In this document: positions 3,779-14,641 of the stretch, one piece after another
Numbering within the stretch: position 1 is the stretch's first letter
Layout: each line of letters starts with the position of its first letter
Assembly: GCF_004364935.1 (NCBI RefSeq)
Contig: NZ_SOBT01000008.1
Span: 747,534-811,533, forward strand
Origin: Panacagrimonas perspica
Lineage (GTDB): Bacteria > Pseudomonadota > Gammaproteobacteria > Nevskiales > Nevskiaceae
Length of the DNA stretch: 64,000 bases
Reading direction: 5' to 3'
Program-made: the position numbers and the translations under genes
The notes under the pieces: generated by a model
The model's database searches: none
What the model saw: only the letters and a program-made list of their open reading frames with translations
What the model was told of the DNA's origin: nothing

Positions 3779-3803
3779 TGCAGCGCGATGGGATCGCGCT
3801 GCA
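3779..3803 (+). terminator. hairpin at the 3' end of the monooxygenase gene
   Basis: A perfect 11-bp stem (3779-3789 with 3793-3803) with a GGG loop starts 12 bp after the stop codon. There is no T-run after it, so it may stabilise the 3' end rather than act as a classical intrinsic terminator. Confidence 0.4.
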
Positions 3804-3822
3804 GCCCAGCGATGGCCGCGCC

Positions 3823-3960
3823 GGGCGGGAGCGCCACAAAGCGTGGGTCGATCAGTTCGTGACGGGCTTTCTACCCGTGAAGCCGTTCGATAGCGATCCT
3901 GAAGACTGGAAGCCCGCGCCACCGTTCTGGATGCGCCATGGGCGAGTGCCGCGGAAGTAA
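3823..3960 (+). pseudogene. 3' fragment of a gene related to the one at 14123-14425
   Basis: The last 45 or so codons closely match the C-terminus of the 100-residue protein at 14123-14425: both share KAWV-x-QFVTGF, VKP-x-DSDPE and PPFWMR, and the DNA stays similar just past the stop. The N-terminal half is missing. It lies 157 bp left of the left attachment repeat, just as the intact gene lies 133 bp left of the right repeat. This suggests it is the surviving right end of an earlier related element inserted at the same tRNA gene. Confidence 0.6.
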
Positions 3961-4117
3961 CGCGCGCGGTGAGCCGGGTAGGGGCTGGGTGATCGTGGAC
4001 CGCATCGATCGCCCATTGATCAACGCGAAGGACGTTCCATCGCCGGGACGGAGCCGGATGACCGGAGGCAGGACGGACACAGGATCCCGGTTATCCCCGT
4101 GAATCCTGCAACACCTC

Positions 4118-4172
4118 GATCTAATGGTGGCCGGGGACGGAATCGAACCGCCGACACGGGGATTTTCAATCC
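4118..4172. other. attL: 55-bp direct repeat with duplicated tRNA-Phe 3' end
   Basis: Identical base for base to 14559-14613. Bases 4125-4172 read on the minus strand as the anticodon-to-CCA half of tRNA-Phe, but the sequence beyond 4172 does not restore the 5' half, so this is an attachment site and not a tRNA gene. Confidence 0.9.
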
Positions 4173-4285
4173 TAAGCAGGCCGCCCTTCTGAGTTTGACG
4201 ACGTCCTACACAGTTTGATGAGTCGCTATAAAACATGGTGTTACGTCGGTTTATCGTCCTATTGTCTTTGACGGTGTTTGCTGCA

Positions 4286-4309
4286 TACTGCCTACATAGT
4301 GCCTACACG
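4286..4309 (+). repeat. putative integrase arm-type site, left copy
   Basis: This 24-bp sequence recurs exactly, in the same orientation, at 14499-14522 near the other end. It contains two copies of TGCCTAC 11 bp apart, as expected for tandem arm-type integrase binding sites. It lies just upstream of the integrase start, so integrase may repress its own gene; a weak promoter (TTGTCT, 16-bp spacer, CATACT) overlaps it. Confidence 0.65.
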
Positions 4310-4328
4310 GGACTTTGGAGCGCAGGGA

Positions 4329-5558
4329 ATGCCGGTCATTTCTATCAGCAAAAAGTCGGTTGAGAAGGAGCTGTTTTCGGCGAAGCCGAGGCTGCTTTAC
4401 GACGAAGACCTGAAGGGTTTTGGCGTCCGGATCACTGCGACGAACAAGGCGTATTTCGCCGAGGCGAGGGTCGGAGGAAAGACCCGACGCGTGAAGCTGG
4501 GCAATCACGGTTCCATTGCCGCCGAGCAAGCCCGCAGACAGGCCAAGGTGCAGCTTGGGCTGATGGCAAAGGGCGAAGACCCCGCCATCAAGCGCCTGCG
4601 TGAGAAGGCCCTTGCCGTGACCGTGGAAGACGCCTTTGATGCGTTCCTGGCCGAGCGCCGGAACCTAAAGCCAACGACCGTGGACGACATGCGCAAGGCC
4701 CTGCGCACGCTCGCTTGGGATTCCAAGCGCATCGCCACGATCACCCCGGATATGTGTCTCAAGCGCCACGGCGAACTCGGAAAGGCTTCGCCGGCCCGCG
4801 CCAACCTCGCGTTCCGATATCTGCGCGCCATCCTGAACTTCGCCGCCGAGAAGTACCTGCAATCGGACGGCACGCCAGTGCTCGCTCACAACCCGGTGCG
4901 CAGCCTTTCAAAGCGGAAGGCGTGGTACGAGGTCAGCCGACGCCGGACGCTGATCGCCGATCCTGACCTGCGCGCCTGGTTCGGTGCCGTCGACGGCCTG
5001 CAGAACCGAGACGCGCGCGATTACCTGCTGCTGGTGCTGCTCACCGGACTGCGGCGGACCGAGGCGCTAGACCTGACCTGGAATGACGTGGATCTGCGCG
5101 GCGGGACGCTGACCATTCCTGACCCGAAGAATCGTCGCCCCCATCAGTTGCCGCTGTCCGACTACGTGCTCGAGATCCTGAAGGCACGCGATAAGGCGAA
5201 GGCCAGCGAGTTCGTATTCGGCACAGCACGCGGTCGGCTGTCCAATCTCCGGTATGCGTTGGCCGAGGTGGAGAAGGGTGCAGGCGTGGAGTTCTGCGTC
5301 CATGACCTGCGACGCACTTTCGCGACTGTGGCCGAGAAGATCGACACTCCCGGCTATGCCCTGAAGCGTCTGCTGAATCACAAGAACGCGGGCGACGTGA
5401 CGGAGGGCTACATCGGCCTCGACGTCGAGCGCCTGCGGAAGCCCATGCAGGCCGTTACGGATTACATCCTGTCTGCGGCGGGCGTGAAGCCGCGCGGGAC
5501 TGTCGTCGGCATACAGACTGGCAAGGGCCGAAAGAGCATGAAGCAAACGGCTGCCTGA
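4329..5558 (+). CDS. int: tyrosine-recombinase integrase
   Basis: This 409-residue site-specific recombinase should catalyse insertion into and excision from tRNA-Phe. The N-terminus is a DUF4102-like arm-binding domain, followed by a core-binding domain and a C-terminal catalytic domain with R242 (TGLRRTE), H325-x-x-R328 (HDLRRT), H351 (LLNH) and the nucleophile Y361 (EGYIG). This is the P4-type arrangement. I start at 4329 because the family N-terminus MPVISISKK begins there and a GGAG-containing stretch precedes it. The gene reads inward from attL. No separate excisionase is adjacent; the AlpA-like proteins further in could serve. Confidence 0.93.
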   Translation: MPVISISKKSVEKELFSAKPRLLYDEDLKGFGVRITATNKAYFAEARVGGKTRRVKLGNHGSIAAEQARRQAKVQLGLMAKGEDPAIKRLREKALAVTVEDAFDAFLAERRNLKPTTVDDMRKALRTLAWDSKRIATITPDMCLKRHGELGKASPARANLAFRYLRAILNFAAEKYLQSDGTPVLAHNPVRSLSKRKAWYEVSRRRTLIADPDLRAWFGAVDGLQNRDARDYLLLVLLTGLRRTEALDLTWNDVDLRGGTLTIPDPKNRRPHQLPLSDYVLEILKARDKAKASEFVFGTARGRLSNLRYALAEVEKGAGVEFCVHDLRRTFATVAEKIDTPGYALKRLLNHKNAGDVTEGYIGLDVERLRKPMQAVTDYILSAAGVKPRGTVVGIQTGKGRKSMKQTAA

Positions 5559-5639
5559 CCGTCTCAGGCAAAGCGCCGGACCCGGGTGTTAGTGGCACCC
5601 GGACCGGCTAACCATCAACGACCTGATTGGAGATCACCA

Positions 5640-6116
5640 ATGGCTGGAAGGAGTTTAGTACCCCAAAAGATTCGTCCTGCAAAACGTCGGCCCGGCAGCG
5701 CCTTGGTCAAGCCGAGTCGCCCTGAGGCTGTCCCAGGGACATTCGATTTTCGCGCCATCGTGCACACCGGAAACAGCACACTGGTGGATCCGCTCCCGGA
5801 GGCCGTGCAGTCCGCCATTGATCGCCGAGCCTGGGATTTGTCGCGCGAAGCATACGAGGCGTGCAGGACCTTCCTAGCGCGACGCGTGGCCTATCAAGCG
5901 GTTTGCGGCAATCCGCGAGTTGTGCAGCCCAAACGGGCCATTCAGGTCATCGCGCATACGACGCTCAATCAGGCCATGGGACCGGTCCACGCGAATGCTC
6001 TTGGACAGATGGAGACGTTTATCCAGATGGTCGCGACTACCGCAGCAGACACCGCCGCTGCGATTCGTCGCGAGCTGGGTCGAGGGGATGCGACGCCGGA
6101 GGTGTCAAATGGATAA
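5640..6116 (+). CDS. unknown element protein (158 aa)
   Basis: I do not recognise a family. A GGAG ribosome site 7 bp upstream sets the start at 5640. The first 45 residues are basic and proline-rich; the rest is predicted mostly helical and Ala-rich, without membrane segments or cysteine motifs. It overlaps the next gene by 8 bp, which in turn overlaps the third, so these three form one translationally coupled unit ending at the terminator near 6790. Position directly after the integrase suggests an accessory role in the satellite life cycle, but no function can be assigned. Confidence 0.65.
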   Translation: MAGRSLVPQKIRPAKRRPGSALVKPSRPEAVPGTFDFRAIVHTGNSTLVDPLPEAVQSAIDRRAWDLSREAYEACRTFLARRVAYQAVCGNPRVVQPKRAIQVIAHTTLNQAMGPVHANALGQMETFIQMVATTAADTAAAIRRELGRGDATPEVSNG

Positions 6117-6576
6117 GTCATCGGATGAAATGGTCATGGCGTGGAATGGGAAAACGAACGTGCCCACGCCCGCGCGTGACGTTGTACAGATCCGGCACGC
6201 GGGAATCGCGATCGATATGGATCACGGAACCCTCGTCACCCCACGACTGCAAAGGGCGCTTTTCTGCCAAGGCGTCGATCGGCTGCCGTGCAAACTTCTG
6301 AAGATCGAGCCCCCCGGCACTCTGCGGCTGAAGACCGTTCTCAAGGAACGTCCGGACGGGACCCGGTTCTACGCCGAGGAGCTTGTCCCACTGAAGCACT
6401 GGCACTTGGAGCTTGAGTATCCGGAGCCGTGCATCAGAACGCTGGCAGGCCCGGTCTCGGTCTGGCCGGTCGCAGTGGTGAACGAGTCGGACGCGCGCGA
6501 TCCGTACTTCGCGGATCTGCCCGTAGCTGACCGCGAAGCAATCCTGGCCGCAGTCGCAGGAGGCGCTAATGGCTAG
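6109..6576 (+). CDS. unknown element protein (155 aa)
   Basis: Begins with ATG inside the end of the upstream gene (8-bp overlap) and overlaps the next gene by 8 bp. The protein has about 50% charged or polar residues, several prolines and predicted beta-strands in the middle, and two isolated cysteines; there is no signal peptide or membrane segment. I recognise no domain. Coupling to both neighbours is the main evidence that it is expressed. Confidence 0.65.
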   Translation: MDKSSDEMVMAWNGKTNVPTPARDVVQIRHAGIAIDMDHGTLVTPRLQRALFCQGVDRLPCKLLKIEPPGTLRLKTVLKERPDGTRFYAEELVPLKHWHLELEYPEPCIRTLAGPVSVWPVAVVNESDARDPYFADLPVADREAILAAVAGGANG

Positions 6577-6775
6577 GGGAACGAAGGCCCCGCTGTATCT
6601 CCGGCCGGCACGGGGTCTTGCCCCGCCGGGGTACGCATGGACAGAGATGGTCTGCGCCGACGAGCGCGCAGCGACACGGGAGTTTGAAGAGTTCTCGAAT
6701 ATGGCCCTCGCCTACCAGAGCCTTCTACGGGCACAAGTCGCCATCGAAATGGCTCGCGAGAACACCGCAGCGTAA
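6569..6775 (+). CDS. unknown small element protein (68 aa)
   Basis: A short basic-then-helical protein that overlaps the preceding gene by 8 bp and ends directly before an intrinsic terminator, so it is the last gene of the three-gene unit. The C-terminal half (about residues 27-65) is likely one long amphipathic helix. No family recognised. Confidence 0.6.
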   Translation: MARGTKAPLYLRPARGLAPPGYAWTEMVCADERAATREFEEFSNMALAYQSLLRAQVAIEMARENTAA

Positions 6776-6782
6776 CCACTAC

Positions 6783-6809
6783 GCCCCGTCAGCAATGGCG
6801 GGGCTTTCT
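6783..6809 (+). terminator. intrinsic terminator closing the first element operon
   Basis: The stem GCCCCG/CGGGGC (6783-6788 with 6799-6804) with a 10-nt loop is followed by TTTCT, 7 bp after the stop of the 68-aa gene. Confidence 0.75.
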
Positions 6810-6901
6810 CGTTGTACCGCTACACCTAGGCTGATCCCCGAAAAGACCGATCCTTCACGGTCCTGGTGCGGCGTCTGTTGAAGGGCGCAGGAAGGTGCGC
6901 T

Positions 6902-7624
6902 ATGTCCGATTCTTCCCCCAGCTTTTCTCCAATTCGAAACTTTCCCGTCCTACCGCGAGACTGGGACGTCGTCGAGGCAGTGCCAGCGTTATGGACTATG
7001 TGGGTCGAGGCTGCGCTGCTTTTTGCCCCTGATATGAAGGAGCGTGATCCTGACCATTTCGTTGCGGCAAGGGTCGCGGAAGCAGATTTCTCGGAAGCAT
7101 TAGATCTTCTTAATGCTCTGTCACGAGAGACCGAACCTGACGATGTCGTGCACAACGGAGTCAACCTCATAGATCGTCTCGATCGCAAGTACGATTCGGA
7201 ACCAGACGATGTGTTGACGCTATCAACGAAGAGCGGACGAAAACTCGGAATGGTAGAGCTCTACAGCGTTATGGCAATGACGACCGTCGATAGTGCCGCC
7301 GATTGTTATCTCCAGTCCGATATGGACGGCATCGTGCGCCATCTAACCGATGCTTCAAAGATTATGACTTTGCGTGAGGTCGAGTTGTCGCTTGAGATGG
7401 GAAACGATGAGATGAAGAAGCTAGCGCGCTTGCGGCACTCAAAGGACCCGAAGCAAGTCGATAAGAAAAAGGTTAGAGAGTGCTGGGAACTTTGGAAAGC
7501 AGACTCCTCGCGATACAAAGGTAAAGCAGAGTTTGCCCGCGACATGCTCCAGAAATTCGATTCTCTCAAGAGCGCTAGAGTCATCGAGGATTGGTGCAGA
7601 GAGTGGGAGTCATCCGCCAAGTAA
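6902..7624 (+). CDS. unknown element protein with charged C-terminal domain (240 aa)
   Basis: Start at 6902, preceded by AGGAAGG at good spacing. The gene is visibly more A/T-rich than its neighbours and uses more AT-ending codons, which suggests a separate origin. The N-terminal 160 residues are acidic and probably helical. The last 60 residues (KKVRECWELW through KAEFARDMLQKF to the end) form a basic, helical module of the kind seen at the C-terminus of assorted phage and island proteins, perhaps nucleic-acid binding. No enzyme motif is visible. It stands alone between a terminator and the operator-like repeat that precedes the regulator gene, so it may be separately regulated cargo. Confidence 0.65.
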   Translation: MSDSSPSFSPIRNFPVLPRDWDVVEAVPALWTMWVEAALLFAPDMKERDPDHFVAARVAEADFSEALDLLNALSRETEPDDVVHNGVNLIDRLDRKYDSEPDDVLTLSTKSGRKLGMVELYSVMAMTTVDSAADCYLQSDMDGIVRHLTDASKIMTLREVELSLEMGNDEMKKLARLRHSKDPKQVDKKKVRECWELWKADSSRYKGKAEFARDMLQKFDSLKSARVIEDWCREWESSAK

Positions 7625-7626
7625 TT

Positions 7627-7663
7627 GGAACCCTGCGCGCAGACTTCGGAACCTTGCGCGCAG
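7627..7663. promoter_or_regulatory. tandem 16-bp operator-like repeat
   Basis: GGAACC-Y-TGCGCGCAG occurs twice, at 7627-7642 and 7648-7663, exactly 21 bp (two helical turns) apart. The first copy holds the perfect palindrome CTGCGCGCAG. It lies 78 bp upstream of the AlpA-like gene, the position expected for that regulator's binding sites. Confidence 0.6.
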
Positions 7664-7740
7664 GCTGCGGATGAGGGGTGGACCCAACGATTTTCGTGCT
7701 ACAGCATGCAGGCCGTCACAACCACAGCATGGACGGCAGC

Positions 7741-7965
7741 ATGGAATCCCAGCAGCACAAAGGCCCCGCCACGCGGGTGCTCAATACTCCTGAAGCGGCG
7801 TCGTATCTGAAGCTTCGAACCCCGACCCTTGAGACATGGCGGTCGCGTGGTGGCGGTCCCCGGTTCTCGAAACTCGGATCGCGCGTCGTCTACCGGATCG
7901 AAGATCTCGACGCATTCCTCGAGGCAGGGTCGCGGACGTCTACGTCTGATCGGGCGGCGGCATGA
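7741..7965 (+). CDS. AlpA/MerR-type helix-turn-helix regulator or excisionase
   Basis: About 74 residues; an in-frame ATG at 7729 is the alternative start. The core TPEAASYLKLRTPTLETW, then GGGPRFSKLGSRVVYR and EDLDAFLEAG is the winged-helix signature of AlpA/excisionase-type proteins. P4-like AlpA activates integrase or acts as a recombination directionality factor; here it may also control the downstream genes. It heads a run of four overlapping genes (4-bp ATGA overlaps) leading to the replication-like gene. Confidence 0.8.
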   Translation: MESQQHKGPATRVLNTPEAASYLKLRTPTLETWRSRGGGPRFSKLGSRVVYRIEDLDAFLEAGSRTSTSDRAAA

Positions 7966-8150
7966 ACGGCGAACGCACAGCCCGGCGCGAGTTCAATGCA
8001 ACCGTGCGCGACAGACGCGATAAGGCGTCTCGCGATGCTCATGCGCTAAGGCTTCAGCAGGCCGATGTTCTGATGATTGAGCTTGGCTTCGTGAAGCGCA
8101 CCAATCCTGATGGAACCGTGTACTTCGTTCGCGTCGGAGTCGAGCCATGA
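7962..8150 (+). CDS. unknown small element protein (62 aa)
   Basis: Overlaps the AlpA-like gene and the next gene by 4 bp each, so translation is coupled. The N-terminal 40 residues are strongly basic and helical (RRE, RDRRDK, SRDAHALRLQ) and the C-terminus looks like a short beta-hairpin. No family recognised. Confidence 0.6.
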   Translation: MNGERTARREFNATVRDRRDKASRDAHALRLQQADVLMIELGFVKRTNPDGTVYFVRVGVEP

Positions 8151-8335
8151 GCGCTGACTCCGCACAGGCGCTCTCACAGCGCCGCCGGGACTTCGAAGAC
8201 GCGATGCGCGCTCTAGGCATCCCCGATCACCACAAGCTCGCATTGCGGGCCGCTGCAAGCGCCTTGGCGAAGGCGTACACCATTGACGCGCTGCGCACCT
8301 TCGCTCAGTCCGTCAAAGGTTCGGCGGCGCGCTAG
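8147..8335 (+). CDS. unknown small element protein (62 aa)
   Basis: A short, probably all-helical protein coupled by a 4-bp overlap upstream and by a stop/start overlap with the GTG of the next gene. The pattern of two helical segments around HHKLALRAAASALAKAY is unremarkable and no family is recognised. Its conserved position in the operon is the main reason to call it. Confidence 0.6.
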   Translation: MSADSAQALSQRRRDFEDAMRALGIPDHHKLALRAAASALAKAYTIDALRTFAQSVKGSAAR

Positions 8336-9000
8336 TGTCTCGCACGCGCGTCAAAGAGAAGGGCCGCGCCGACGATGGCGGCAAATCCAAGTTCGTGAAG
8401 CTCGAGCATTGGATGATGGACACGGCCGCATGGAAGGATCTCGATCCGGTGGCTCGGTGCGCGTACATCGAAGTCCGCCGGATCTACCGAGGACCTGGCA
8501 GCAACAACGGACGAATTGGCGTCGGCGTCCGCAATCTCTCGGACAACCTGGGCGTATCCAAAGACACCGCCGCTCGCGCTCTCAGGAGCCTTCAGGAGCA
8601 CGGATTCCTGGTGGCGACGACGAAGGGATCGTTCAGCAGAAAGATTCGCCACGCGACCGAATACAGACTCACGGACGAGGGGTGCGACGTAACGAACGCC
8701 CTTGCCACCAAAGAATTTGCCCGTTGGAAAAAAAACACGGTCCCTGTGGTGAGACTGACAGTCCCTGTAGTCGGACCGATCGGTCCCTGTGGTGAGACAA
8801 GGGTGCCCTCGGAACCACCCCAAAACACCCCTTACGGTCCCTCAGATCGGACCGTCACCGACTCTATCGGTCCCTCTCCTGATACACATATAGGTTTGCC
8901 ATCCCCAGCGTCTTCCGCTGTTGCTGTTGCCTCTGCTGGAAGCTTCAGAGGTAAGCGGCCCAAATTGGGCGCAGACGGGAAGGTGGCTCATGTTCGGTGA
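8335..9000 (+). CDS. winged-helix replication-initiator-like protein
   Basis: This 221-residue protein starts at a GTG that shares a base with the upstream stop. Residues of about 20-115 look like a replication-type winged helix: KFVKLEHWMMDTAAWKDL, then LSDNLGVSKDTAARALRSLQEHGFL, then a wing and ATEYRLTD. The remainder is low-complexity, rich in Pro, Gly, Ser and Thr, and is encoded by the iteron-like repeats at 8739-8875. Known phage initiators such as lambda O carry their origin inside their own gene, and I infer the same here. No helicase or primase motif is present, so host factors or a helper would be needed. A plain transcription regulator is the alternative. Confidence 0.65.
   Translation: MSRTRVKEKGRADDGGKSKFVKLEHWMMDTAAWKDLDPVARCAYIEVRRIYRGPGSNNGRIGVGVRNLSDNLGVSKDTAARALRSLQEHGFLVATTKGSFSRKIRHATEYRLTDEGCDVTNALATKEFARWKKNTVPVVRLTVPVVGPIGPCGETRVPSEPPQNTPYGPSDRTVTDSIGPSPDTHIGLPSPASSAVAVASAGSFRGKRPKLGADGKVAHVR
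8739..8875 (+). repeat. iteron-like repeats, candidate replication origin
   Basis: GGTCCCTGTGGTGAGAC is present exactly at 8739-8755 and 8782-8798, with a degenerate copy (AGTCCCTGTAGT) from 8760 between them, so three units are spaced 21-22 bp. Further GGTCCCT cores are at 8836 and 8869 and an inverted core (CGGACCG) at 8848. A run of eight A residues precedes the set. Regular two-turn spacing next to an A-tract within a replication-like gene is typical of iteron origins. Confidence 0.6.
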
Positions 9001-9163
9001 GCGAACTGTGCTGCAAGCATGCGATCTGCATCGGGCTAGCACCGGGCTGACCCCCTTGAGGCGTCCGTCCCACGGGGGGCCATCAGCATCTGCGAGGCGT
9101 TGCCGCAGACAGCCGCGCTCGAAACCGTTCTTTGCTACCCGGCAACAATCTCACGAGGACCCA

Positions 9164-9586
9164 ATGCCTAGACGTTCCGTTGCATCCCTGACCACCCCTG
9201 GCGCGCTCCCCATCCGGAGGCGCCTCGAACCGCCCGACCACCTGACTGTCGACCAGTCGCTGCGGTGGACCGTTATCACCGCGACCAAGCCCTCAGATTG
9301 GTTTACGGAGGACTCTTTGGGGCTGCTCACCGAACTGGTGAGAGCGGAGTCGGAATCGGCGCGGATCGCTGACGAACTGACGATGCTGCAGTCGGCTGAC
9401 CTCCGAACGCGGGAAGGCATGAGCCGCTACACGCAGCTCGCGAAGAATGCGGACCTCTGGAGCAAGGCGCAGGTGAACCTCTGTCGCGCGCTCCGGTTGA
9501 CGCCCCACTCGCAGATCGGTCCTAAGTCTGCTGCGACATCAAGCCGGCGGGCGGGCGGCGCGAAGCCTTGGGACTTCACTGCCTGA
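9164..9586 (+). CDS. phage terminase small-subunit-like protein (P27 type)
   Basis: About 140 residues, starting at 9164 behind a GAGG ribosome site. The helical pattern with W..........LL.ELV.......A, an extended middle helix, and a C-terminal LCRALRLTPHSQIG segment resembles P27-family small terminases, which recognise packaging sites and recruit the large subunit. No large terminase gene follows, so the protein would redirect a helper phage motor, as satellite TerS proteins do. A 420-bp gene-free segment with strong dyad symmetry comes right after, which could be its target. Confidence 0.6.
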   Translation: MPRRSVASLTTPGALPIRRRLEPPDHLTVDQSLRWTVITATKPSDWFTEDSLGLLTELVRAESESARIADELTMLQSADLRTREGMSRYTQLAKNADLWSKAQVNLCRALRLTPHSQIGPKSAATSSRRAGGAKPWDFTA

Positions 9587-10010
9587 GAGGCTGCGGCCGA
9601 TGCCCTGCGCTCACTGCCCGCATTGCCAATCTCAGACCGCTGCAGATCCGGGGGCGGACGTGCGTCGCTCGTGCTACGAGGCTGCCCGTCGTGTGGCCTT
9701 CCAGACCGACCCCTCCCCGCCCTGGGATGGGGGGCGGTGGTTCCGATCTGGCGATGCGTCGCCTTGTAGACCGTCCTCCAAGGCTTTTTCGTGTTTCCGC
9801 AGAATTCCGTTTCTCGGGACCGCGAAAGGAATTCTGGAGAGATGCGAAAAAGGTTGGGAGAACGGTCTACAGCGACGCGTCTCAAGGTTTGGTGGATGCC
9901 CGCCCCGGGGGGCGGTTCCAGCCTCAAAGGGAAGTGCAATCCCTGACCACGGTCCATCTCACGCACAGATTTTTTTCCCTTTTTGAATTAATCAAATTTC
10001 AAATCAGCAA
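9587..10010. other. gene-free segment after the TerS-like gene
   Basis: Frames crossing this segment are low-complexity and none has a credible start and ribosome site. It contains paired GC-rich motifs (CCCCGCCC...GGGGGGCGG near 9716-9737 and GCCCGCCCCGGGGGGCGG near 9899-9916) flanking a long central inverted repeat, and a T-rich stretch near 9968-9980 just before the next gene. Confidence 0.6.
9756..9878. repeat. long imperfect inverted repeat (about 123 bp)
   Basis: Arms pair in nested blocks: GCGTCGC 9756-9762 with 9872-9878; TGTAGACCGT 9765-9774 with 9862-9871; a CTTTTTCG/CGAAAAAG block; and CAGAATTCC with GGAATTCTG inside, leaving a loop of about 20 nt. As RNA or single-stranded DNA it would form one long hairpin. 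Its position suggests a packaging or nicking site, a structured RNA, or an inserted miniature element. Confidence 0.65.
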
Positions 10011-10277
10011 ATGATCGACCGCGAATCCCGCGTTGCCGCAACCAGGGCACGGCTCTACGAGGCGTCTATCTCGCTGGGGTGCTGGATGTCCGGCGATGGC
10101 CGAGTCGGTGAAGGAGATCTCGCTCAGATCATCGGTTGGTCGCCCGACAGTCTCCGGAACGCTAGGGCCGAAGGTAAAGGCCCTACTTGGTATCGGCTCG
10201 GCGGCGCCGGGCACAAGGTGACTTACCTGCTCGCCGATGTCGCGTTGTGGATCGAGACCCACTGCGAAAGTCACTGA
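10011..10277 (+). CDS. second AlpA-like helix-turn-helix protein
   Basis: The 88-residue protein has an N-terminal helix and then the winged-helix pattern GDLAQIIGWSPDSLRNARAEG, KGPTWYRLGG, HKVTYLLADVALWIE, clearly related in layout to the AlpA-like protein at 7741. It probably binds DNA. The triplicate 10-bp repeat immediately after its stop and 60 bp before the capsid gene could be its operator, making it a candidate regulator of capsid expression. A role in DNA packaging is possible but not indicated. Confidence 0.7.
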   Translation: MIDRESRVAATRARLYEASISLGCWMSGDGRVGEGDLAQIIGWSPDSLRNARAEGKGPTWYRLGGAGHKVTYLLADVALWIETHCESH

Positions 10278-10279
10278 AC

Positions 10280-10309
10280 CCAACCGCATCCAACCGCACC
10301 TAACCCCAT
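10280..10309. promoter_or_regulatory. three phased 10-bp repeats before the capsid gene
   Basis: CCAACCGCAT, CCAACCGCAC and CTAACCCCAT follow each other head to tail with exact 10-bp (one helical turn) period, in the 85-bp gap between the HTH gene and the capsid gene. Such phasing suits cooperative protein binding to one face of DNA. Confidence 0.5.
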
Positions 10310-10362
10310 GGTTCGGGCGACCGAGTAAATCCAATCTGCAGACTCACACACCGGAGTCTCAG

Positions 10363-11427
10363 ATGTCAGTTTCCCTACTTCCCCGCGGCACCACGTTTGC
10401 CCGCTACTGCGCGTCGATAGCACGGTGCGGTGGCAACATTCAGAAGGCCGCAGGCGACGCTGGCAGCCGCTACGGCGACAACTCTGCACCCGCGATGATC
10501 TTGCGCGGCGCTGTCGGCGCCGGCAGCACCCGGCCGGATGGCTCTTGGGGATCGGCGCTCGCCGATTTCAACCTGGCAGCCGCGGAGTTCTTCGGGCTGG
10601 TCCGCGAATCCTCGCTGCTCGGCCGCATGTCCGGTCTGCGTCGCATGCCGCTGGGGGTCCAGGTGTTGCGGTCCACTGCAGGCGCGTCTGCATACTGGGT
10701 CGCGTCCGGCAAATCGAAGCCAGTGACGCGCATGTCGTTCGCTCGAGACGCTCTGCCGCCCCTGAAGATCGCTTCACTGAGCGTGCTGACGAAGGAGCTG
10801 CTCTTCAACGCCGATCCGGCGTCGGAGCGATACATCCTGGCGGACATGGTCGCAGCTGCTCGCGAGGTGCAGGACCTTGCCTTCGTCGATCCCGCGAACT
10901 CCGGCGTCGCTGAGGAAAGACCCGCTAGCGTCACCAATGGCGCCACGACAATTGCTGCGACGGGAGATCCTGCCGCTGACATTGCCGCGCTGATCGCTGC
11001 GTTTCCCGGAGACCTCGCGAGCGCCTATTTCGTGATGCATCCGACCACGGCAGCCGGCATCGGCCTGTCGCGGGATTCCGGCGGCTCGTTCCAATTCGCC
11101 GACGTCGGACCGCGCGGTGGCGCGATCTTGGGGATTCCCGTCCTTACATCGCGCATGGTCCCGATCGACAGCAATGGCGGAATCATTGCGCTGATCGATG
11201 CGTCTGGCATCGCCTTCGGTGAGGGCGGCTCAGAGGTTCGCAGTTCGGACCAAGCCTCTATCGAGATGAGCGACACACCGGGCGGCGATTCAGTGACGCC
11301 AACGGGTTCCTCGATGGTTTCTCTTTACCAAACGAATTCGACGGCGCTGCTCATCGAGTTCGAAACAAACTGGGACCGCGTTCGCCCGGGCAGCGTCGCG
11401 CTGATCGAGGGAGCGGCCTACGCGTGA
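10363..11427 (+). CDS. HK97-type phage major capsid protein
   Basis: This 354-residue protein starts at 10363 behind GGAG. It lacks a long delta domain. The order of N-arm, the PVTRMSF / PLKIASLSVLTKELL segment, the helical spine around AAAREVQDLAFVDP, a region ending PGDLASAYFVMHPTTA, then GAILGIPVLTSRMVP and a C-terminal TALLIEFETNWDRVRPGSVA is the usual arrangement of HK97-fold capsid proteins. It would form the satellite's own shell or one that accepts helper DNA machinery. Its stop overlaps the GTG start of the prohead protease by 4 bp, so the two are coupled; the order capsid-then-protease is the reverse of the common phage order. Confidence 0.85.
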   Translation: MSVSLLPRGTTFARYCASIARCGGNIQKAAGDAGSRYGDNSAPAMILRGAVGAGSTRPDGSWGSALADFNLAAAEFFGLVRESSLLGRMSGLRRMPLGVQVLRSTAGASAYWVASGKSKPVTRMSFARDALPPLKIASLSVLTKELLFNADPASERYILADMVAAAREVQDLAFVDPANSGVAEERPASVTNGATTIAATGDPAADIAALIAAFPGDLASAYFVMHPTTAAGIGLSRDSGGSFQFADVGPRGGAILGIPVLTSRMVPIDSNGGIIALIDASGIAFGEGGSEVRSSDQASIEMSDTPGGDSVTPTGSSMVSLYQTNSTALLIEFETNWDRVRPGSVALIEGAAYA

Positions 11428-12266
11428 GCACCAGCGGACACCTTGTTGTAAAGCTGCTGGCGGCTCCCACAGACGGCAAGCGAATCATTACCGGGTGGGC
11501 GTCGACAGATGACGTCGACCTCGTCGGAGATATCTGCGAACCCGCTGGATGCATCGCGAAGACCCCTCTTCCGTTGCTATTCGGGCACAACCACGAGTCG
11601 ATCATTGGCAGCGTGACGTCGGTTGTCATCGAAGCCACGCGCGTCCGCATCGAGGCCACGATTGTCGAGGGAACGGCCAAGGCGGACGAAGCTTGGACGC
11701 TGATACGCGCGGGCGCGCTGACATCCTTCAGCGTGGGATTTATTGGGCACAAGTCGACGGCGATCAGTACAGGCGGGCGCAGATGGACGTCGTGGACCCT
11801 GACCGAGGTTTCTGCAGTGGCGGTGCCTGCAAATCCCTTCGCAAAAATCACAGGGTCGAGCAACGCGAAGGAGCTAGCGAGTCCGCATGCTGCAACGCGC
11901 GAGATTCTCCAGCAGAACTTGGCCACCGCGCGGTCCCTGGCCAATAAGCGCGCCGTCAAGAAAGGGCTTTCGAAAGTCCGGGAGTCCAGCGTTTCATGGA
12001 CGTTCCACCAACTGAATTTCGTTTCTGCCATGAAGCGCATTGCGTCTCTGGAACGACGACTGGCGGACAGTCCGAAGTATTTGGGCATCTTCAATCGCAC
12101 TGCGGTCTACAGCCGCGGCGATGTTGTGAGCCACGGAGGAAGCGCCTTCTATTGCGTGCGCGATGGCGTATCCAGTGCACCAACGCATGAGGGGTCAGAC
12201 GCGGTTTCGGCGGATTGGCAGATCTTTGTGCGGCGCGGCCGCGATGCGCGAGGTGACTCACGATGA
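11424..12266 (+). CDS. HK97-family prohead protease with C-terminal extra module
   Basis: The 280-residue protein starts at a GTG overlapping the capsid stop. The first 140 residues carry the protease signature: His55 in LLFGHNH, Ser103 in ALTSFSVGF and an acidic residue, Glu128, in LTEVSAVAVPANP. It should trim scaffold or the capsid N-arm during head maturation. A helical linker (about 150-215) is followed by a module of about 60 residues (YLGIF, YSRGDVVSHGGSAFYC, DWQIFVRRGRD) that resembles the sugar-binding-like repeats found in phage tail and decoration proteins. Such a fusion could decorate the head. It overlaps the next gene by 4 bp. Confidence 0.82.
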   Translation: MSTSGHLVVKLLAAPTDGKRIITGWASTDDVDLVGDICEPAGCIAKTPLPLLFGHNHESIIGSVTSVVIEATRVRIEATIVEGTAKADEAWTLIRAGALTSFSVGFIGHKSTAISTGGRRWTSWTLTEVSAVAVPANPFAKITGSSNAKELASPHAATREILQQNLATARSLANKRAVKKGLSKVRESSVSWTFHQLNFVSAMKRIASLERRLADSPKYLGIFNRTAVYSRGDVVSHGGSAFYCVRDGVSSAPTHEGSDAVSADWQIFVRRGRDARGDSR

Positions 12267-12481
12267 ACGATGAACTCCGAGATCAATTGCGCGCGGCAGC
12301 CGCACGACGCGAGCCCGCATTGTTGTGCAGAGAGACCGTTGCTGCCCTGGGCCTGAACAGCGACAACGTCGTTTTGGACGTGGAAGCCGGCCTGATCTAT
12401 TTCGAGCTCGATGGCGGCTCGTGGTCTGTCTCGCGCGTCAGTGCCGAGGGCTTGGCCGCATTGGGAATGAAGGTGCACTGA
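12263..12481 (+). CDS. unknown small element protein (72 aa)
   Basis: Translationally coupled to the protease gene (4-bp overlap). An N-terminal helix (residues 1-25) is followed by a likely beta-hairpin (VVLDVEAGLIYFELDGGSW) and another short helix. Position suggests a head-associated accessory protein, but no family is recognised. Confidence 0.6.
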   Translation: MNDELRDQLRAAAARREPALLCRETVAALGLNSDNVVLDVEAGLIYFELDGGSWSVSRVSAEGLAALGMKVH

Positions 12482-12482
12482 T

Positions 12483-12617
12483 ATGCCGAAACTACGACAG
12501 CAGCCGACCGTCCCGACCGCGAAGGCCCGCAAGCACCTTCGAGATCTTCAACGTCTGCGCGAGCAGGCTGCAGGGCGCAGTCGGTGGAATAGTCCGCTGC
12601 GGTCCGAAACGCAGTGA
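12483..12617 (+). CDS. small basic protein (44 aa)
   Basis: An ATG lies one base after the stop of the previous gene, and the frame encodes 44 residues with about 25% Arg/Lys and a helical centre (KARKHLRDLQRLREQ). The tight spacing supports expression; the sequence itself gives no function. It may bind nucleic acid. Confidence 0.5.
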   Translation: MPKLRQQPTVPTAKARKHLRDLQRLREQAAGRSRWNSPLRSETQ

Positions 12618-12643
12618 CCACGTAACTTACTCAGGAGATCAAA

Positions 12644-12817
12644 ATGTCTGGAACATTTCAGCTCGCCGGAACGATCATCGGCAGCCAGTTCGGGCCGATT
12701 GGCATGTACATCGGAAGTCAGGTCGGTGCCTGCATTGGGCCGGAAATCTTCGGAGCATCGGCCGAGGCTGCCGTCGAGTCGCCCATGGTCGAGCCCTCGG
12801 AGGATGATGCGTCGTGA
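12644..12817 (+). CDS. small glycine-zipper-like protein (57 aa)
   Basis: A strong ribosome site (AGGAG, 7 bp upstream) precedes the ATG at 12644. Residues 7-37 repeat small residues at close to every fourth position (AGTIIGSQFGPIGMYIGSQVG), typical of glycine-zipper membrane hairpins, and the tail is acidic. It could be a holin-like or other membrane-inserting peptide, but there is no lysis enzyme nearby. Its stop overlaps the GTG of the next gene. Confidence 0.55.
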   Translation: MSGTFQLAGTIIGSQFGPIGMYIGSQVGACIGPEIFGASAEAAVESPMVEPSEDDAS

Positions 12818-13422
12818 CAATCTTGAACTGGCACTGCAGCAAGACTTCAGCGATTGTCCTTGCGGACACGATGGGCAAATTCCCTGACGGTAAATTGTCG
12901 CCGATAAGCAAGGTGCTCTACCTGCCGCATTCCAACCTGGTCGTTGGCGGCAGGGGCATATCGGAACTGCAGCAGCACGTCGGGAACAAGCTGAGCTGGG
13001 CTGCGCAGGACTACGACGAGGCGCTCACCATTCTGCCAACGGTGATCGCCGAGGTCGTCACCCAGTTCAGGCAGTTGCCCGCGTGGCAAGACAATGAGCA
13101 TTTGCGCGCCGAGCCGACGGCCGTCGTTGTCATCGGCTACTCGCAGAAGGATTCGAGATTCCGTGCGACCTTCGCGAAAGCCGACAGCCTCGAGAGTCCA
13201 TTCTCATTTCGCGTCGAGGACAGCTGCACCGCGCCGCCGCAGGACGATACCGGTTCGCCCCCGGAGGTGAACGGAGACACGCCCTCGAAGATGTTGTCCA
13301 TCGCCCGCCGCCAGTACGCTCGGGCGTCCGAGAAATATCCAGGCGAGTCGTTCGGCGGTCAGTTCATCGTCGCGGAGATGACCGTAAACGGAACGCGGTT
13401 CTCGCGACGGCCTATCGCCTGA
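12814..13422 (+). CDS. proteasome/HslV-like Ntn-hydrolase candidate
   Basis: This 202-residue protein starts at a GTG overlapping the upstream stop. The N-terminus begins Met-Thr-Ile, followed by a strand pair ending AIVLADT, a turn, SKVLYLPHSNLVVGGRG and a long helix. HslV and proteasome beta subunits show the same order (Thr2 after Met, an A-D turn, K-hydrophobic-strand, then G-rich strand and helix). A late FGGQFIVAEMT fits the closing strands. If correct, removal of Met would expose Thr2 as the nucleophile. The central insert rich in Pro and Asp is unlike HslV. It is the last gene of the capsid operon. The fold call is inferred from pattern only. Confidence 0.45.
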   Translation: MTILNWHCSKTSAIVLADTMGKFPDGKLSPISKVLYLPHSNLVVGGRGISELQQHVGNKLSWAAQDYDEALTILPTVIAEVVTQFRQLPAWQDNEHLRAEPTAVVVIGYSQKDSRFRATFAKADSLESPFSFRVEDSCTAPPQDDTGSPPEVNGDTPSKMLSIARRQYARASEKYPGESFGGQFIVAEMTVNGTRFSRRPIA

Positions 13423-13444
13423 GACCAACGGTTTTTCGACCGGA

Positions 13445-13978
13445 TTAGTTGCATGTCTCGAAGCCGTCGAAGATCGCGCAATTCATCCGTCCTCGGGGGT
13501 ACCACTCTCCCTCCTCGACCTCCAAGCCGGTCGGCGCTATGTATTTCTTTCTTACCGGCTTCGGAACAGGCTGTTTGTACCCTCGCTGATCACATACGAA
13601 GCTCACCTTCTTACGTCGTTGCGATTCGACGCGCCACTGATGCTCGCAAGTTTGATAGCGCCTTCGATCCTCCGCATCGTTCGAACGGTCTGAAGCAGAA
13701 CTTCCAGAATTATCGTCTCTTCGCTGTGCGTCTCGGCTCTTGGCCTCAACGCCCTGGCGCGCGGGAGGTGACTGGCTCTGCGGCGGCGGCGCGTTTAAAT
13801 CGGCTGTCGAATTGTCATAGACCCTCGGAGCAATCCGAGTCGACTTCTGCTCTCCGCTGCACGGTCGATCCTGATAATTGACGGCGCCGTCGGCGTCGGT
13901 GCACTTGAATAACCCTGCGTGAACTTGGGCGACGAAAAGAAATAGCGGAGCCACGCAAAGTTTCGCCGTGCCTCTCAT
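13445..13978 (-). CDS. exported DUF4124-type protein
   Basis: A 177-residue protein; the start at 13978 has GAGG 7 bp upstream and yields a clean signal peptide (about residues 1-21). The mature N-terminus GLFKCTDADGAVNYQDRPC is the DUF4124 motif found in many proteobacterial envelope proteins. The middle is disordered and charged, and the C-terminus holds four more cysteines, probably in disulphides. It runs against all other genes of the element and ends 22 bp from the capsid operon, so it is probably cargo (morons are often inverted). A LexA box sits 73 bp upstream and is shared with the divergent gene. Confidence 0.75.
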   Translation of the reverse strand: MRGTAKLCVAPLFLFVAQVHAGLFKCTDADGAVNYQDRPCSGEQKSTRIAPRVYDNSTADLNAPPPQSQSPPARQGVEAKSRDAQRRDDNSGSSASDRSNDAEDRRRYQTCEHQWRVESQRRKKVSFVCDQRGYKQPVPKPVRKKYIAPTGLEVEEGEWYPRGRMNCAIFDGFETCN

Positions 13979-14050
13979 CGGATGACCTCGCGAACAGCGA
14001 CGTGAATCGGGGGCTGCCATCATGTCTCTCTTGACCATACAGTGCCTCCA

Positions 14051-14070
14051 TACTGTACGTTCATACAGTA
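14051..14070. promoter_or_regulatory. LexA operator (SOS box)
   Basis: TACTGTACGTTCATACAGTA is a near-perfect 20-bp SOS box: CTGT-N8-ACAG with TA at both ends, 16 of 20 positions as in the E. coli consensus. It lies 53 bp before the start of the gene at 14123 and 73 bp before the divergent DUF4124 gene, so DNA damage may induce one or both. Confidence 0.8.
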
Positions 14071-14122
14071 CATGGCCCACCATCGAGACTATCCCAGCAC
14101 GGCAAGCGAGGAGCGCAACCTC

Positions 14123-14425
14123 ATGGCCGACGCGTATGTGCTGATCGAGCGGTACACCCTGCGGAACGATCCCACGCGCGCGCTCACTGCGGAGCAGCGG
14201 AAAGCTTGGGCCGCGGAGGCGGCAACGGTGCTCGGCGCGCTTCGCACAGCTCTGTCACGTCGGCTGGAGCCAAACGACGACCGAGCCGAGAGGGAGCGGC
14301 GCAAAGCATGGGTCCATCAGTTCGTGACGGGGTTCCGTCCAGTGAAGCCGCTGGATAGCGACCCCGAGTCGTGGAGGCCCGAGCCACCGTTCTGGATGCG
14401 CAACGGGCGAGAGCCGAAGAAGTAG
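14123..14425 (+). CDS. LexA-controlled small protein (100 aa)
   Basis: I choose ATG 14123 because GGAG lies 10 bp upstream; the earlier in-frame ATG at 14072 sits directly on the LexA box with no room for a ribosome site. The N-terminal 55 residues are helical and Ala-rich; the C-terminus is basic and proline-rich with KAWVHQFVTGF and PPFWMR motifs. That tail is duplicated as the broken gene at 3823-3960. It is the last gene before attR. An SOS-controlled gene at the element end could link excision or helper interaction to DNA damage, but the biochemical role is unknown. Confidence 0.65.
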   Translation: MADAYVLIERYTLRNDPTRALTAEQRKAWAAEAATVLGALRTALSRRLEPNDDRAERERRKAWVHQFVTGFRPVKPLDSDPESWRPEPPFWMRNGREPKK

Positions 14426-14498
14426 CGCGAAGGATTGCCGGCGGTTATCGCCGGGTGCCCGTGACGAAGAATTCGCCTATGAGCAGTGTAGGGCGCTC

Positions 14499-14522
14499 TA
14501 CTGCCTACATAGTGCCTACACG
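14499..14522 (+). repeat. putative integrase arm-type site, right copy
   Basis: Exact repeat of 4286-4309 in the same orientation, 36 bp inside the right attachment repeat. Paired sites inside both ends match the P and P' arms of tRNA-targeting phage attachment regions. Confidence 0.65.
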
Positions 14523-14556
14523 AGTTAGACGACGTTTTGATTCAGCGTCTAACTCG
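14521..14556. repeat. 11-bp inverted repeat beside attR
   Basis: CGAGTTAGACG (14521-14531) pairs with CGTCTAACTCG (14546-14556) across a 14-nt loop, ending two bases from the attachment repeat. GAGTTTGACGACGT on the left side (about 4190-4203) resembles the first arm, so this may be another recombination-protein site rather than a terminator. Confidence 0.5.
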
Positions 14557-14558
14557 TT

Positions 14559-14613
14559 GATCTAATGGTGGCCGGGGACGGAATCGAACCGCCGACACGG
14601 GGATTTTCAATCC
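14559..14613. other. attR: 55-bp direct repeat inside tRNA-Phe
   Basis: Identical to 4118-4172. It spans the anticodon loop to the CCA end of tRNA-Phe plus seven bases beyond. Recombination with the left copy would excise the element and leave the tRNA intact. Confidence 0.9.
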
Positions 14614-14641
14614 CCTGCTCTACCGACTGAGCTACCCGGCC
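14566..14641 (-). tRNA. tRNA-Phe (GAA)
   Basis: On the minus strand a full 76-nt cloverleaf with encoded CCA: acceptor stem GGCCGGG/CCCGGCC, D-arm AGCTCAGTCGGTAGAGC, anticodon loop TTGAAAA with GAA, and T-arm GTTCGATTC. It lies downstream of yggX, an order I recall from other gammaproteobacteria. It is the integration target of the element on its 3' side. Confidence 0.97.

Follow-up and report, generated by a model that had tools for sequence, protein, structure and literature searches.

A stretch of 64,000 nucleotides from the chromosome of Panacagrimonas perspica, here called the window, contains a candidate satellite element of ~10.4 kb (positions 4118-14613), which, judging from its sequence, is a phage satellite integrated together with part of a capsid module. 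Its most likely products are chimeric helper/satellite capsids, a reading to which we assign a probability of roughly 0.55.

The element is flanked by an exact 55-nt direct repeat that includes the 3' part of a tRNA-Phe gene, and a 40-mer from this repeat occurs twice in the window, against 0.00 occurrences expected. With its tRNA-borne att pair, its arm-like repeats, an int-alpA RNA and open frames, the element looks like an intact integration unit. The set of integrase, AlpA-like, replication, TerS, HK97-type capsid and protease genes recognized in an earlier note on this DNA is real according to Pfam and PHROGs matches. Of the 18 genes called, 16 were scanned with Pfam and/or PHROGs, all but two ORFs of 62 aa that start at 7962 and 8147. 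The features are as follows.

4118-4172, plus strand: attL core, 55 nt, exact-repeat copy of the tRNA-Phe 3' part
4286-4309, plus strand: left copy of a 24-nt arm-like repeat with two TGCCTACA boxes, just inside the left end, a candidate integrase arm site by inferred function
4329-5558, plus strand: tyrosine integrase (PF00589, 1.5e-16; PF13356, 2.7e-10)
5640-6775, plus strand: three small ORFs (5640-6116, 6109-6576, 6569-6775), nothing above cut-off in the scans
6819-6885, plus strand: int-alpA RNA (RF02996) between int and alpA (44.6 bits, gathering 35.8, E 9.6e-7)
6902-7624, plus strand: 240-aa protein with no function assigned by the Pfam/PHROGs scans
7729-7965, plus strand: AlpA-like HTH_17 regulator/excisionase (PF12728, 5.4e-10), named AlpA by family likeness
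8335-9000, plus strand: winged-helix replication initiator/helicase loader (phrog_270, 1.5e-6; phrog_186, 3.9e-4)
9164-9586, plus strand: terminase small subunit, TerS (phrog_12559, 8.3e-15)
9764-9872, no strand: long imperfect hairpin (z -9.9 against 200 shuffles)
10011-10277, plus strand: small HTH protein directly upstream of the MCP gene, by likeness to HTH genes of two relatives
10363-11427, plus strand: stand-alone HK97-type major capsid protein, MCP (PF05065, 2e-18; phrog_617, 2.1e-35)
11424-12266, plus strand: prohead protease (S78), overlapping the MCP stop (PF04586, 1.1e-10; phrog_617 N-half, 4.6e-34)
12263-12481, plus strand: 72-aa ORF with no function assigned by the PHROGs/Pfam scans
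12644-12817, plus strand: 57-aa Gly-zipper-like ORF (phrog_6922, 5e-4; Gly-zipper, 0.14; not significant)
12814-13422, plus strand: 202-aa protein with no assigned function (phrog_13702, 7e-4)
13445-14083, minus strand: DUF4124 protein, possible cargo (PF13511, 3.1e-8)
14072-14425, plus strand: 117-aa protein; the 3' part of its gene is repeated outside attL (80% identity over 167 nt, 3798-3964)
14499-14522, plus strand: right copy of the 24-nt arm-like repeat, just inside the right end
14559-14613, plus strand: attR core, exact repeat, extending into tRNA-Phe (14566-14641, minus strand)

The hairpin, which lies within the 424-nt gap between the TerS and HTH genes, may be a site for packaging or replication, or else a small transposable repeat. 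Promoter and terminator counts were no different from those of shuffles. The 57-aa ORF also matches tape-measure families weakly and not significantly (0.034-0.045; phrog_167, 0.034), and the 202-aa protein has no match among PDB sequences.

The window TerS has no Pfam match, and its sole match among phages (2 records) is the Pseudomonas phage PAJU2 (Detrevirus), whose TerS is 33% identical (2e-12). The likeness to PAJU2 extends to the MCP (33% identical, 79% of the MCP covered) and the protease (41% identical over 134 aa); however, PAJU2 is a full phage in which protease, scaffold segment and MCP form one 667-aa protein. PAJU2 gp05 was compared with the 72-aa ORF, gp07 with the 202-aa ORF and gp04 with the gene that follows the MCP in the relative L148, and no likeness was found in any of these pairs. 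In a structure search with Foldseek, the window MCP matched the Bxb1, D3 and HK97 capsids (best 3.8e-16), and the EcCI2 capsid was a distant fold match with 16% identity.

Whole-protein matches to TerL, portal, tail tube, holin and endolysin number zero among the 16 of 18 element genes scanned, which agrees with the absence of these parts reported earlier and separates the element from a complete temperate phage with its TerL, portal and tail genes. A few partial or weak matches are contrary to this: the 202-aa product matches a "terminase large subunit" family, phrog_13702, as listed above, although the PAJU2 TerL has 505 aa; the protease C-terminus resembles the end of the portal family phrog_1289 (6.5e-7), with further weak matches to tail-fibre families (0.012, 0.048); and the 57-aa ORF has the tape-measure likeness given above. 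The protease C-terminus also has a CBM_5_12-like domain below cut-off (Pfam 0.014). The whole host genome has no match to the TerL family phrog_2 or the portal family phrog_12, the two families searched, in a search for which phrog_2 was matched in 11 and phrog_12 in 4 of 14 control genomes. That the host genome has no match to these two families and no PAJU2-like TerL, and so offers no candidate helper by these searches, weighs against the mixed-capsid reading.

The element is not a lone remnant, as its stand-alone-MCP plan recurs. In ten further elements or fragments the MCP stands alone and none of the scanned ORFs is a TerL, giving 11 with the window element; this is a lower bound that leaves out G598 (331-aa frame, locus L151), the frames of 35 genome_contigs loci and 30 of 80 IMG/VR loci, and of 54 further new loci, ORFs were listed for L154, L155 and L188 only. 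The relatives occur in the same family (L011/G004), the same class (L149/G579, L014/G300) and the same phylum (L148, L150/G483), as well as on IMG/VR contigs. A single-protein MCP scan of viral_contigs gave no match, nor did the two-row profile A1 in either collection; the four-row profile A3 did find relatives. Among the 369 genomes of the class, MCP BLAST returned two distant matches plus the element's own, and profile A10 returned one, G300. Two candidates were set aside on reading their ORFs: L012 (G073), whose TerL-like and portal-like ORFs suggest an ordinary phage, and L155 (41% MCP), in which a fused protease-MCP of 651 aa follows an ORF of 502 aa and precedes one of 449 aa, as in phages.

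The MCP is universal among the 11 elements by selection. An HTH gene lies immediately 5' of it in eight of them, that of the window matching L148 7858-8211 at 39% (3e-13) and L011 8874-9170 at 33% (8e-8), with a Pfam HTH_17 match of merely 0.037. In all four elements that have a protease, the window element included, the MCP gene comes first, which is the reverse of the order in the phage loci compared and a point absent from the earlier note. Among the ORFs scanned, a tape measure is present in 6/11, TerS in 4/11, protease in 4/11, portal in 2/11 and TerL in 0/11, and five elements (L011, L148, L149, L150 and L014) have neither protease nor portal. On these counts, the supposition that relatives always contain portal or TerL, under which the element would have been a mere deletion remnant, does not hold. 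The synteny proposed at the same time was borne out in part: relatives with a stand-alone MCP exist, but the exact integrase-AlpA-rep-TerS-capsid-protease set is not conserved.

Att pairs were found in the window element, L011 (by eye) and L148 (a 57-nt repeat). In L148 the MCP is the only recognised structural gene, and L011 has the order TerS-HTH-MCP-tape measure. The window and L011 TerS proteins are alignable over 26 residues only (0.005), and therefore TerS genes differ between relatives; moreover, the phrog_12559 TerS is not a family marker, because it occurs in one of 85 genomes of the order, namely its own. Ten of the 11 stand-alone MCPs fall in one clade (support 100/99) of a tree made without L009/G300 (open frame 381 aa), in which L188 is represented by its C-terminal 204 aa only and the 19 "phage-type" rows are not all fused, L080 and L035 having a stop within 150 codons upstream.

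Scaffold segments from two phages were found in 3/3 control phage loci (1.8e-9 to 4.3e-26) and had no match in the window or L148 loci at E up to 10; the MCP halves of the same phages match window and L148 at 4.1e-67 to 3.4e-40. The window and L148 MCPs are thus without the coiled scaffold segment of their phage relatives, which is suggestive of MCPs that may be unable to form shells alone. The comparison covers these two elements, the MCP starts of the other relatives having been read only, and the N-termini of the L148, L154 and L150 MCPs differ from that of the window. In the predicted MCP model there are helices in the first ~50 residues, which leave room for self-assembly and weigh against mixed capsids. 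An unlikely alternative is that the satellite MCP and its own protease build a whole small shell, with portal, motor and tail from the helper, as in a stripped-down capsid-forming PICI (cf-PICI). The overlap of the protease and MCP genes, the HK97 fold predicted for the MCP and the portal of two relatives would suit such a shell, but the scaffold segment is absent in both elements tested and 5/11 elements have neither protease nor portal among the ORFs scanned, so that a shell of own parts is not general.

P4-like satellites are not known to have their own MCP, and the Sid and Psu proteins of these satellites act on the helper capsid, whereas the window element has an MCP. Gram-negative PICIs, as described in PMC10111431 and PMC6092414, are like the window element in size (10-20 kb) and layout: the integrase and AlpA genes take up one end, the replication genes follow and the late gene(s) come last. 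An int that points inward from the att end, a feature of these PICIs (PMC10111431), is also present in the window element. The earlier suggestion that an MCP without a motor marks a distinct satellite type is not supported, since of 29 Gram-negative PICIs used as reference, 21 are already reported to have an MCP gene (PMC10111431), EcCICFT073 and PmCI172 have capsid genes (PMC6092414) and SaPIbov5 encodes Ccm, a capsid-protein homologue that resizes capsids (PMC8569155). The idea of a capsid-carrying satellite is already known, and we read the window element as a variant of it without a motor.

There are also differences from the Gram-negative PICIs. Their replication zone is described as primase/SSB/DUF5906 (PMC10111431), whereas that of the window has the winged-helix initiator (phrog_270) only; the MCP of 11capE belongs to the lambda gpE family (PMC10111431), whereas that of the window is HK97-type and nearest to protease-capsid fusion phages; and the protease found beside the window MCP has no mentioned equivalent in the available text of PMC10111431 and PMC6092414. 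The primase zone is not an absolute PICI feature, because L148 and L014 have primase-like genes and one primase-less tRNA-Phe group is named among Gram-negative PICIs (PMC10111431). No Bro-like match was found among the window ORFs scanned with Pfam/PHROGs, several ORFs being without assigned function.

An E. coli model of these PICIs is packaged in the form of concatemers of phage length, and capsid genes of PICIs are reported to be dispensable for helper-assisted transfer (PMC10111431), the latter weighing against mixed capsids. Both observations would suit an MCP that acts as an interference factor, poisoning helper capsid assembly while helper heads of normal size carry the satellite DNA, which may be concatemeric; we consider this still less likely than a self-built shell, since recurrent protease, TerS, portal or tape measure would seem to suit building over poisoning. 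A decayed prophage, a deletion remnant in which MCP, protease and TerS happened to survive, is highly improbable: these phage-like genes, the interrupted MCP frame of L188 and the remnant-like repeat outside attL are consistent with it, but the att pair is intact, the window frames are open and the motor-less plan recurs in the MCP clade along with a common HTH-MCP pair and a gene order opposite to that of phages, a pattern hardly explained by random deletions in parallel.

Other satellites show parts of the same design. Ccm sits at pentamers and cannot form shells alone (PMC8569155); it is encoded by the satellite, is homologous to the MCP of the helper and is without a long N-terminal arm (PMC8569155). 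The window MCP, which is homologous to those of PAJU2-like phages, may be its counterpart. Carrying the pentamer position over to the window MCP is analogy only, which weighs against mixed capsids. SaPIbov5 is staphylococcal and has no identified protease (PMC8569155), whereas the window has a protease and its relatives a tape measure or portal. Cf-PICIs also have their own MCP, but are described as encoding all capsid-formation and packaging proteins (PMC12409344), whereas the window is without TerL and portal matches. PLEs of Vibrio cholerae form chimeric tails, and their tape measure enters PLE virions (PMC12987554); the window's relatives also have their own tape measure. However, PLE11 virions hold ICP1 capsid proteins (PMC12987554), whereas the stand-alone-MCP elements have their own MCP, and the window is without a significant tape-measure match.

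The mixed-capsid reading, which we prefer, is supported by the intact att pair, the PAJU2-like MCP, protease and TerS and the absence of TerL and portal matches among the genes scanned, and further by the relatives with att pairs, the single MCP clade, the absent scaffold segment and the Ccm precedent. In this mechanism, the helper would be a phage whose head is related and PAJU2-like, built from a protease-capsid fusion; it would induce the element or infect, Int and AlpA would excise it and the initiator would replicate it. Satellite TerS would then steer helper TerL to satellite DNA, while the scaffold-less satellite MCP would, much like Ccm, join the helper's capsid protein in assembly around the helper portal and favour shells with room for about 10 kb. 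The mixed shell would be matured by the satellite protease, and motor, portal and tail would come from the helper.

In relatives that also have a tape measure or portal, this part substitution probably reaches to neck and tail. It is possible, though on balance doubtful, that the elements form a family of "part-substituting" satellites whose virions are chimeric at both ends: a scaffold-less MCP resizes the head, a satellite tape measure (joined in some elements by a portal or tail gene) swaps single helper parts in neck and tail, and the motor is always the helper's. According to a 2026 description, no satellites before PLEs were known to contribute tail parts of their own to chimeric tails (PMC12987554), and with this precedent, head-and-tail chimerism is directly testable in elements with both their own MCP and their own tape measure.

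Overall, the element extends capsid-carrying satellites to a host of the family Nevskiaceae and, with its relatives, to other Pseudomonadota. It also offers a natural experiment, in which one MCP clade stands alone with no protease fused to it and, in window and L148, the two tested, no scaffold segment. Stand-alone-MCP elements are thereby a route to asking which segments of HK97 capsids set shell size.

Eighteen called genes cover 86% of the span between the 55-nt repeats that end the element, and its GC content (60.8%) is lower than that of the left (64.7%) and right (66.6%) flanks. From left to right, the element carries an integrase, three small ORFs of unknown function, an int-alpA RNA, a gene for a 240-aa unknown protein, an AlpA-like HTH_17 gene, a pair of 62-aa ORFs, a replication initiator of winged-helix type, the terminase small subunit (TerS), a 424-nt gap with a very strong hairpin, a small helix-turn-helix (HTH) protein, an HK97-type major capsid protein (MCP), a protease, three further ORFs that are small or unknown, a reverse-strand DUF4124 gene, and a 117-aa protein.

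Features of the element
4118-4172 and 14559-14613: att repeat, exact, at the element ends; the right copy extends into tRNA-Phe
6819-6885: int-alpA RNA (curated RNA family RF02996, E 9.6e-7, above gathering score)
9764-9872: near-palindromic hairpin of 109 nt between TerS and the HTH gene (z -9.9)
13445-14083, minus strand: DUF4124 gene (PF13511, 3.1e-8)
14566-14641, minus strand: tRNA-Phe

The DUF4124 gene is possibly cargo. The hairpin may mark a site of packaging or replication, or represent a small transposable repeat; when the end of one arm served as query, the window gave no second full copy. Just outside attL, 3798-3964 is an 80% copy (167 nt) of the right end inside attR (14263-14429) and looks like the leftover of a previous element that used this tRNA-Phe site. 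A same-genus genome (L213, G029:C6) has the same tRNA-Phe (1938-2013) and flanking DNA with other genes there, one of them HNH-like by eye, so the site is variable; no direct repeat of at least 24 nt was found within 7.5 kb of that tRNA-Phe.

The earlier note's description of a capsid-carrying element without a motor proved correct. Of the 18 element genes, 16 were scanned, and none matched portal or the terminase large subunit (TerL) as a whole protein; the longest ORF between the repeats is 426 aa, as against 505 aa for the TerL of Pseudomonas phage PAJU2. In the whole genome, the TerL family phrog_2 and the portal family phrog_12 have no match, with matches in 11/14 and 4/14 control genomes, respectively, and no PAJU2-like TerL was found in it, as against two of the 58 family genomes, a total that counts this genome; no candidate helper of those families is therefore resident.

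A search of 398 genomes of the phylum with a four-row MCP profile (cut-off 1e-10) matched 14, and many IMG/VR contigs matched too. Of 80 IMG/VR records, 50 were selected for a look at the open frame that holds the MCP: 47 of these frames span 424-889 aa, some of them truncated where the contig ends, and the other three (L068, L069, L086) span 362-390 aa. Two further loci (L154, L188) were reached with a profile of stand-alone MCPs, that is, MCPs in their own frame and not fused to a protease. The expectation that copies exist elsewhere was thus borne out, with ten further elements or fragments carrying a stand-alone MCP, eleven in total. Such elements are rare among the genomes sampled: at 1e-15, the stand-alone profile matched one of 369 class genomes besides that of the window. 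Pairs of att sites are seen only in the window, L148 and, by eye, L011, and a repeat search found none in L086, L149 or L150; the other loci are contig pieces or unbounded, and gene absences there are weaker evidence.

Gene content of the eleven elements and fragments, among the ORFs scanned
Window: integrase, rep, TerS, HTH, MCP, protease
L011 (same family): integrase, rep, TerS, HTH, MCP, coiled protein, tape measure
L148 (same phylum): integrase, primase-like, HTH, MCP, coil + CBM-like protein
L150 (same phylum): integrase, rep, HTH, MCP; scan excluded several 330-836 aa ORFs of the fetched stretch
L069: rep, MCP, protease, tape measure, AlpA- or TerS-like protein, integrase
L086: integrase, rep, HTH, MCP, protease, tail assembly protein phrog_32
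L154: integrase, weak TerS (phrog_83, 2.4e-5), HTH, MCP, portal, weak tail chaperone, tape measure
L068: rep, HNH, HTH, MCP, portal, tape measure, tail protein, DNA ligase
L149 (same class): rep, HTH-like (by eye; no PHROG match), MCP, coil + CBM-like protein, tape measure
L188: weak rep-like, interrupted MCP, protease, tape measure
L014 (same class): primase, helicase, MCP, TerS

Among the ORFs scanned, TerL occurs in 0/11, portal in 2/11, tape measure in 6/11, protease in 4/11 and TerS in 4/11, the last count leaving out HTH-like proteins that match the TerS family phrog_57 in L069 (1.4e-4) and L150 (0.0085). Five of the eleven have neither a protease nor a portal. An HTH gene lies immediately upstream of the MCP in eight, the exceptions being L069, L188 and L014. 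The gene directly after the MCP encodes a coiled segment and a CBM_5_12-like domain in the window (11424-12266, at the C-terminus), L148 (9335-9679) and L149 (4692-5168), and its product could be a head decoration or a trans-acting scaffold. One genome (G483) holds two such elements, L148 in tRNA-Lys and L150 near tRNA-Ser; downstream of the MCP, both encode a phrog_12540 protein.

In PAJU2 and a phage-order locus (L155), protease, a coiled segment of about 100 aa and MCP form a single protein. The protease precedes the MCP in the five phage loci examined (PAJU2, L155, L075 and L203, one frame; L130, separate frame) and follows it in all four satellites having one (window, L069, L086, L188). 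The MCP halves of PAJU2 and L155 match both the window element and L148; their coiled segments, matched in 3/3 control phage loci, have no match in either at E up to 10. By eye, a G-x-x-F-x-R box lies a few residues after the MCP start in the window, L069 and L068 and, from presumed internal starts, in L086 and L148; L011 has a variant, the box is not plain in L154, L149 or L150, and the L188 MCP is broken. The AlphaFold2 model of the window MCP (mean pLDDT 82.2) matches the capsids of Bxb1, D3 and HK97 (lowest E 3.8e-16; TM about 0.5).

In phage assembly, TerS and an MCP without a motor need TerL, portal and tail from elsewhere, so that this element must depend on a helper phage, which would supply all three. 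Because the coiled scaffold segment is absent, the satellite MCP is more likely to enter a shell driven by the helper than to form one itself. For this proposed role, the nearest case that has been tested is Ccm of SaPIbov5, which occupies pentamer positions and is unable to form shells alone (PMC8569155).

A maximum-likelihood tree of 29 MCPs separates ten stand-alone MCPs from 19 phage-type rows by one branch (support 100/99), with long branches for L150 and L011; as the stand-alone rows were recruited by likeness to the window MCP, it shows their grouping and not the frequency of such elements. The stand-alone MCP of G300 (L014), left out of this tree, falls outside the ten in another, where it was entered as fused-type, and a second stand-alone lineage is therefore likely.

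That satellites without a motor can carry MCP genes is established for Gram-negative PICIs (PMC10111431, PMC6092414). Satellite tape measures have been shown in virions for PLEs, and putative ones noted in capsid-forming PICIs (cf-PICIs) (PMC12987554). The Pseudomonas satellite AH14b has homologues of tail assembly protein I and no terminase (PMC4936722); L086 resembles it in the tail assembly protein only. Literature searches listed no title or abstract opening on the stand-alone MCP clade; this does not prove that the clade is unpublished, and some relatives could already be listed in the primary cf-PICI or SatelliteFinder papers. PMC12409344 describes cf-PICIs as encoding all that capsid formation and packaging require, and the element is not filed among them because it has no TerL or portal. 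It is only PICI-like because the window is without a primase zone, which is not an absolute feature of Gram-negative PICIs (PMC10111431). Overall, the element is best filed as a capsid-carrying, PICI-like satellite of variant form.
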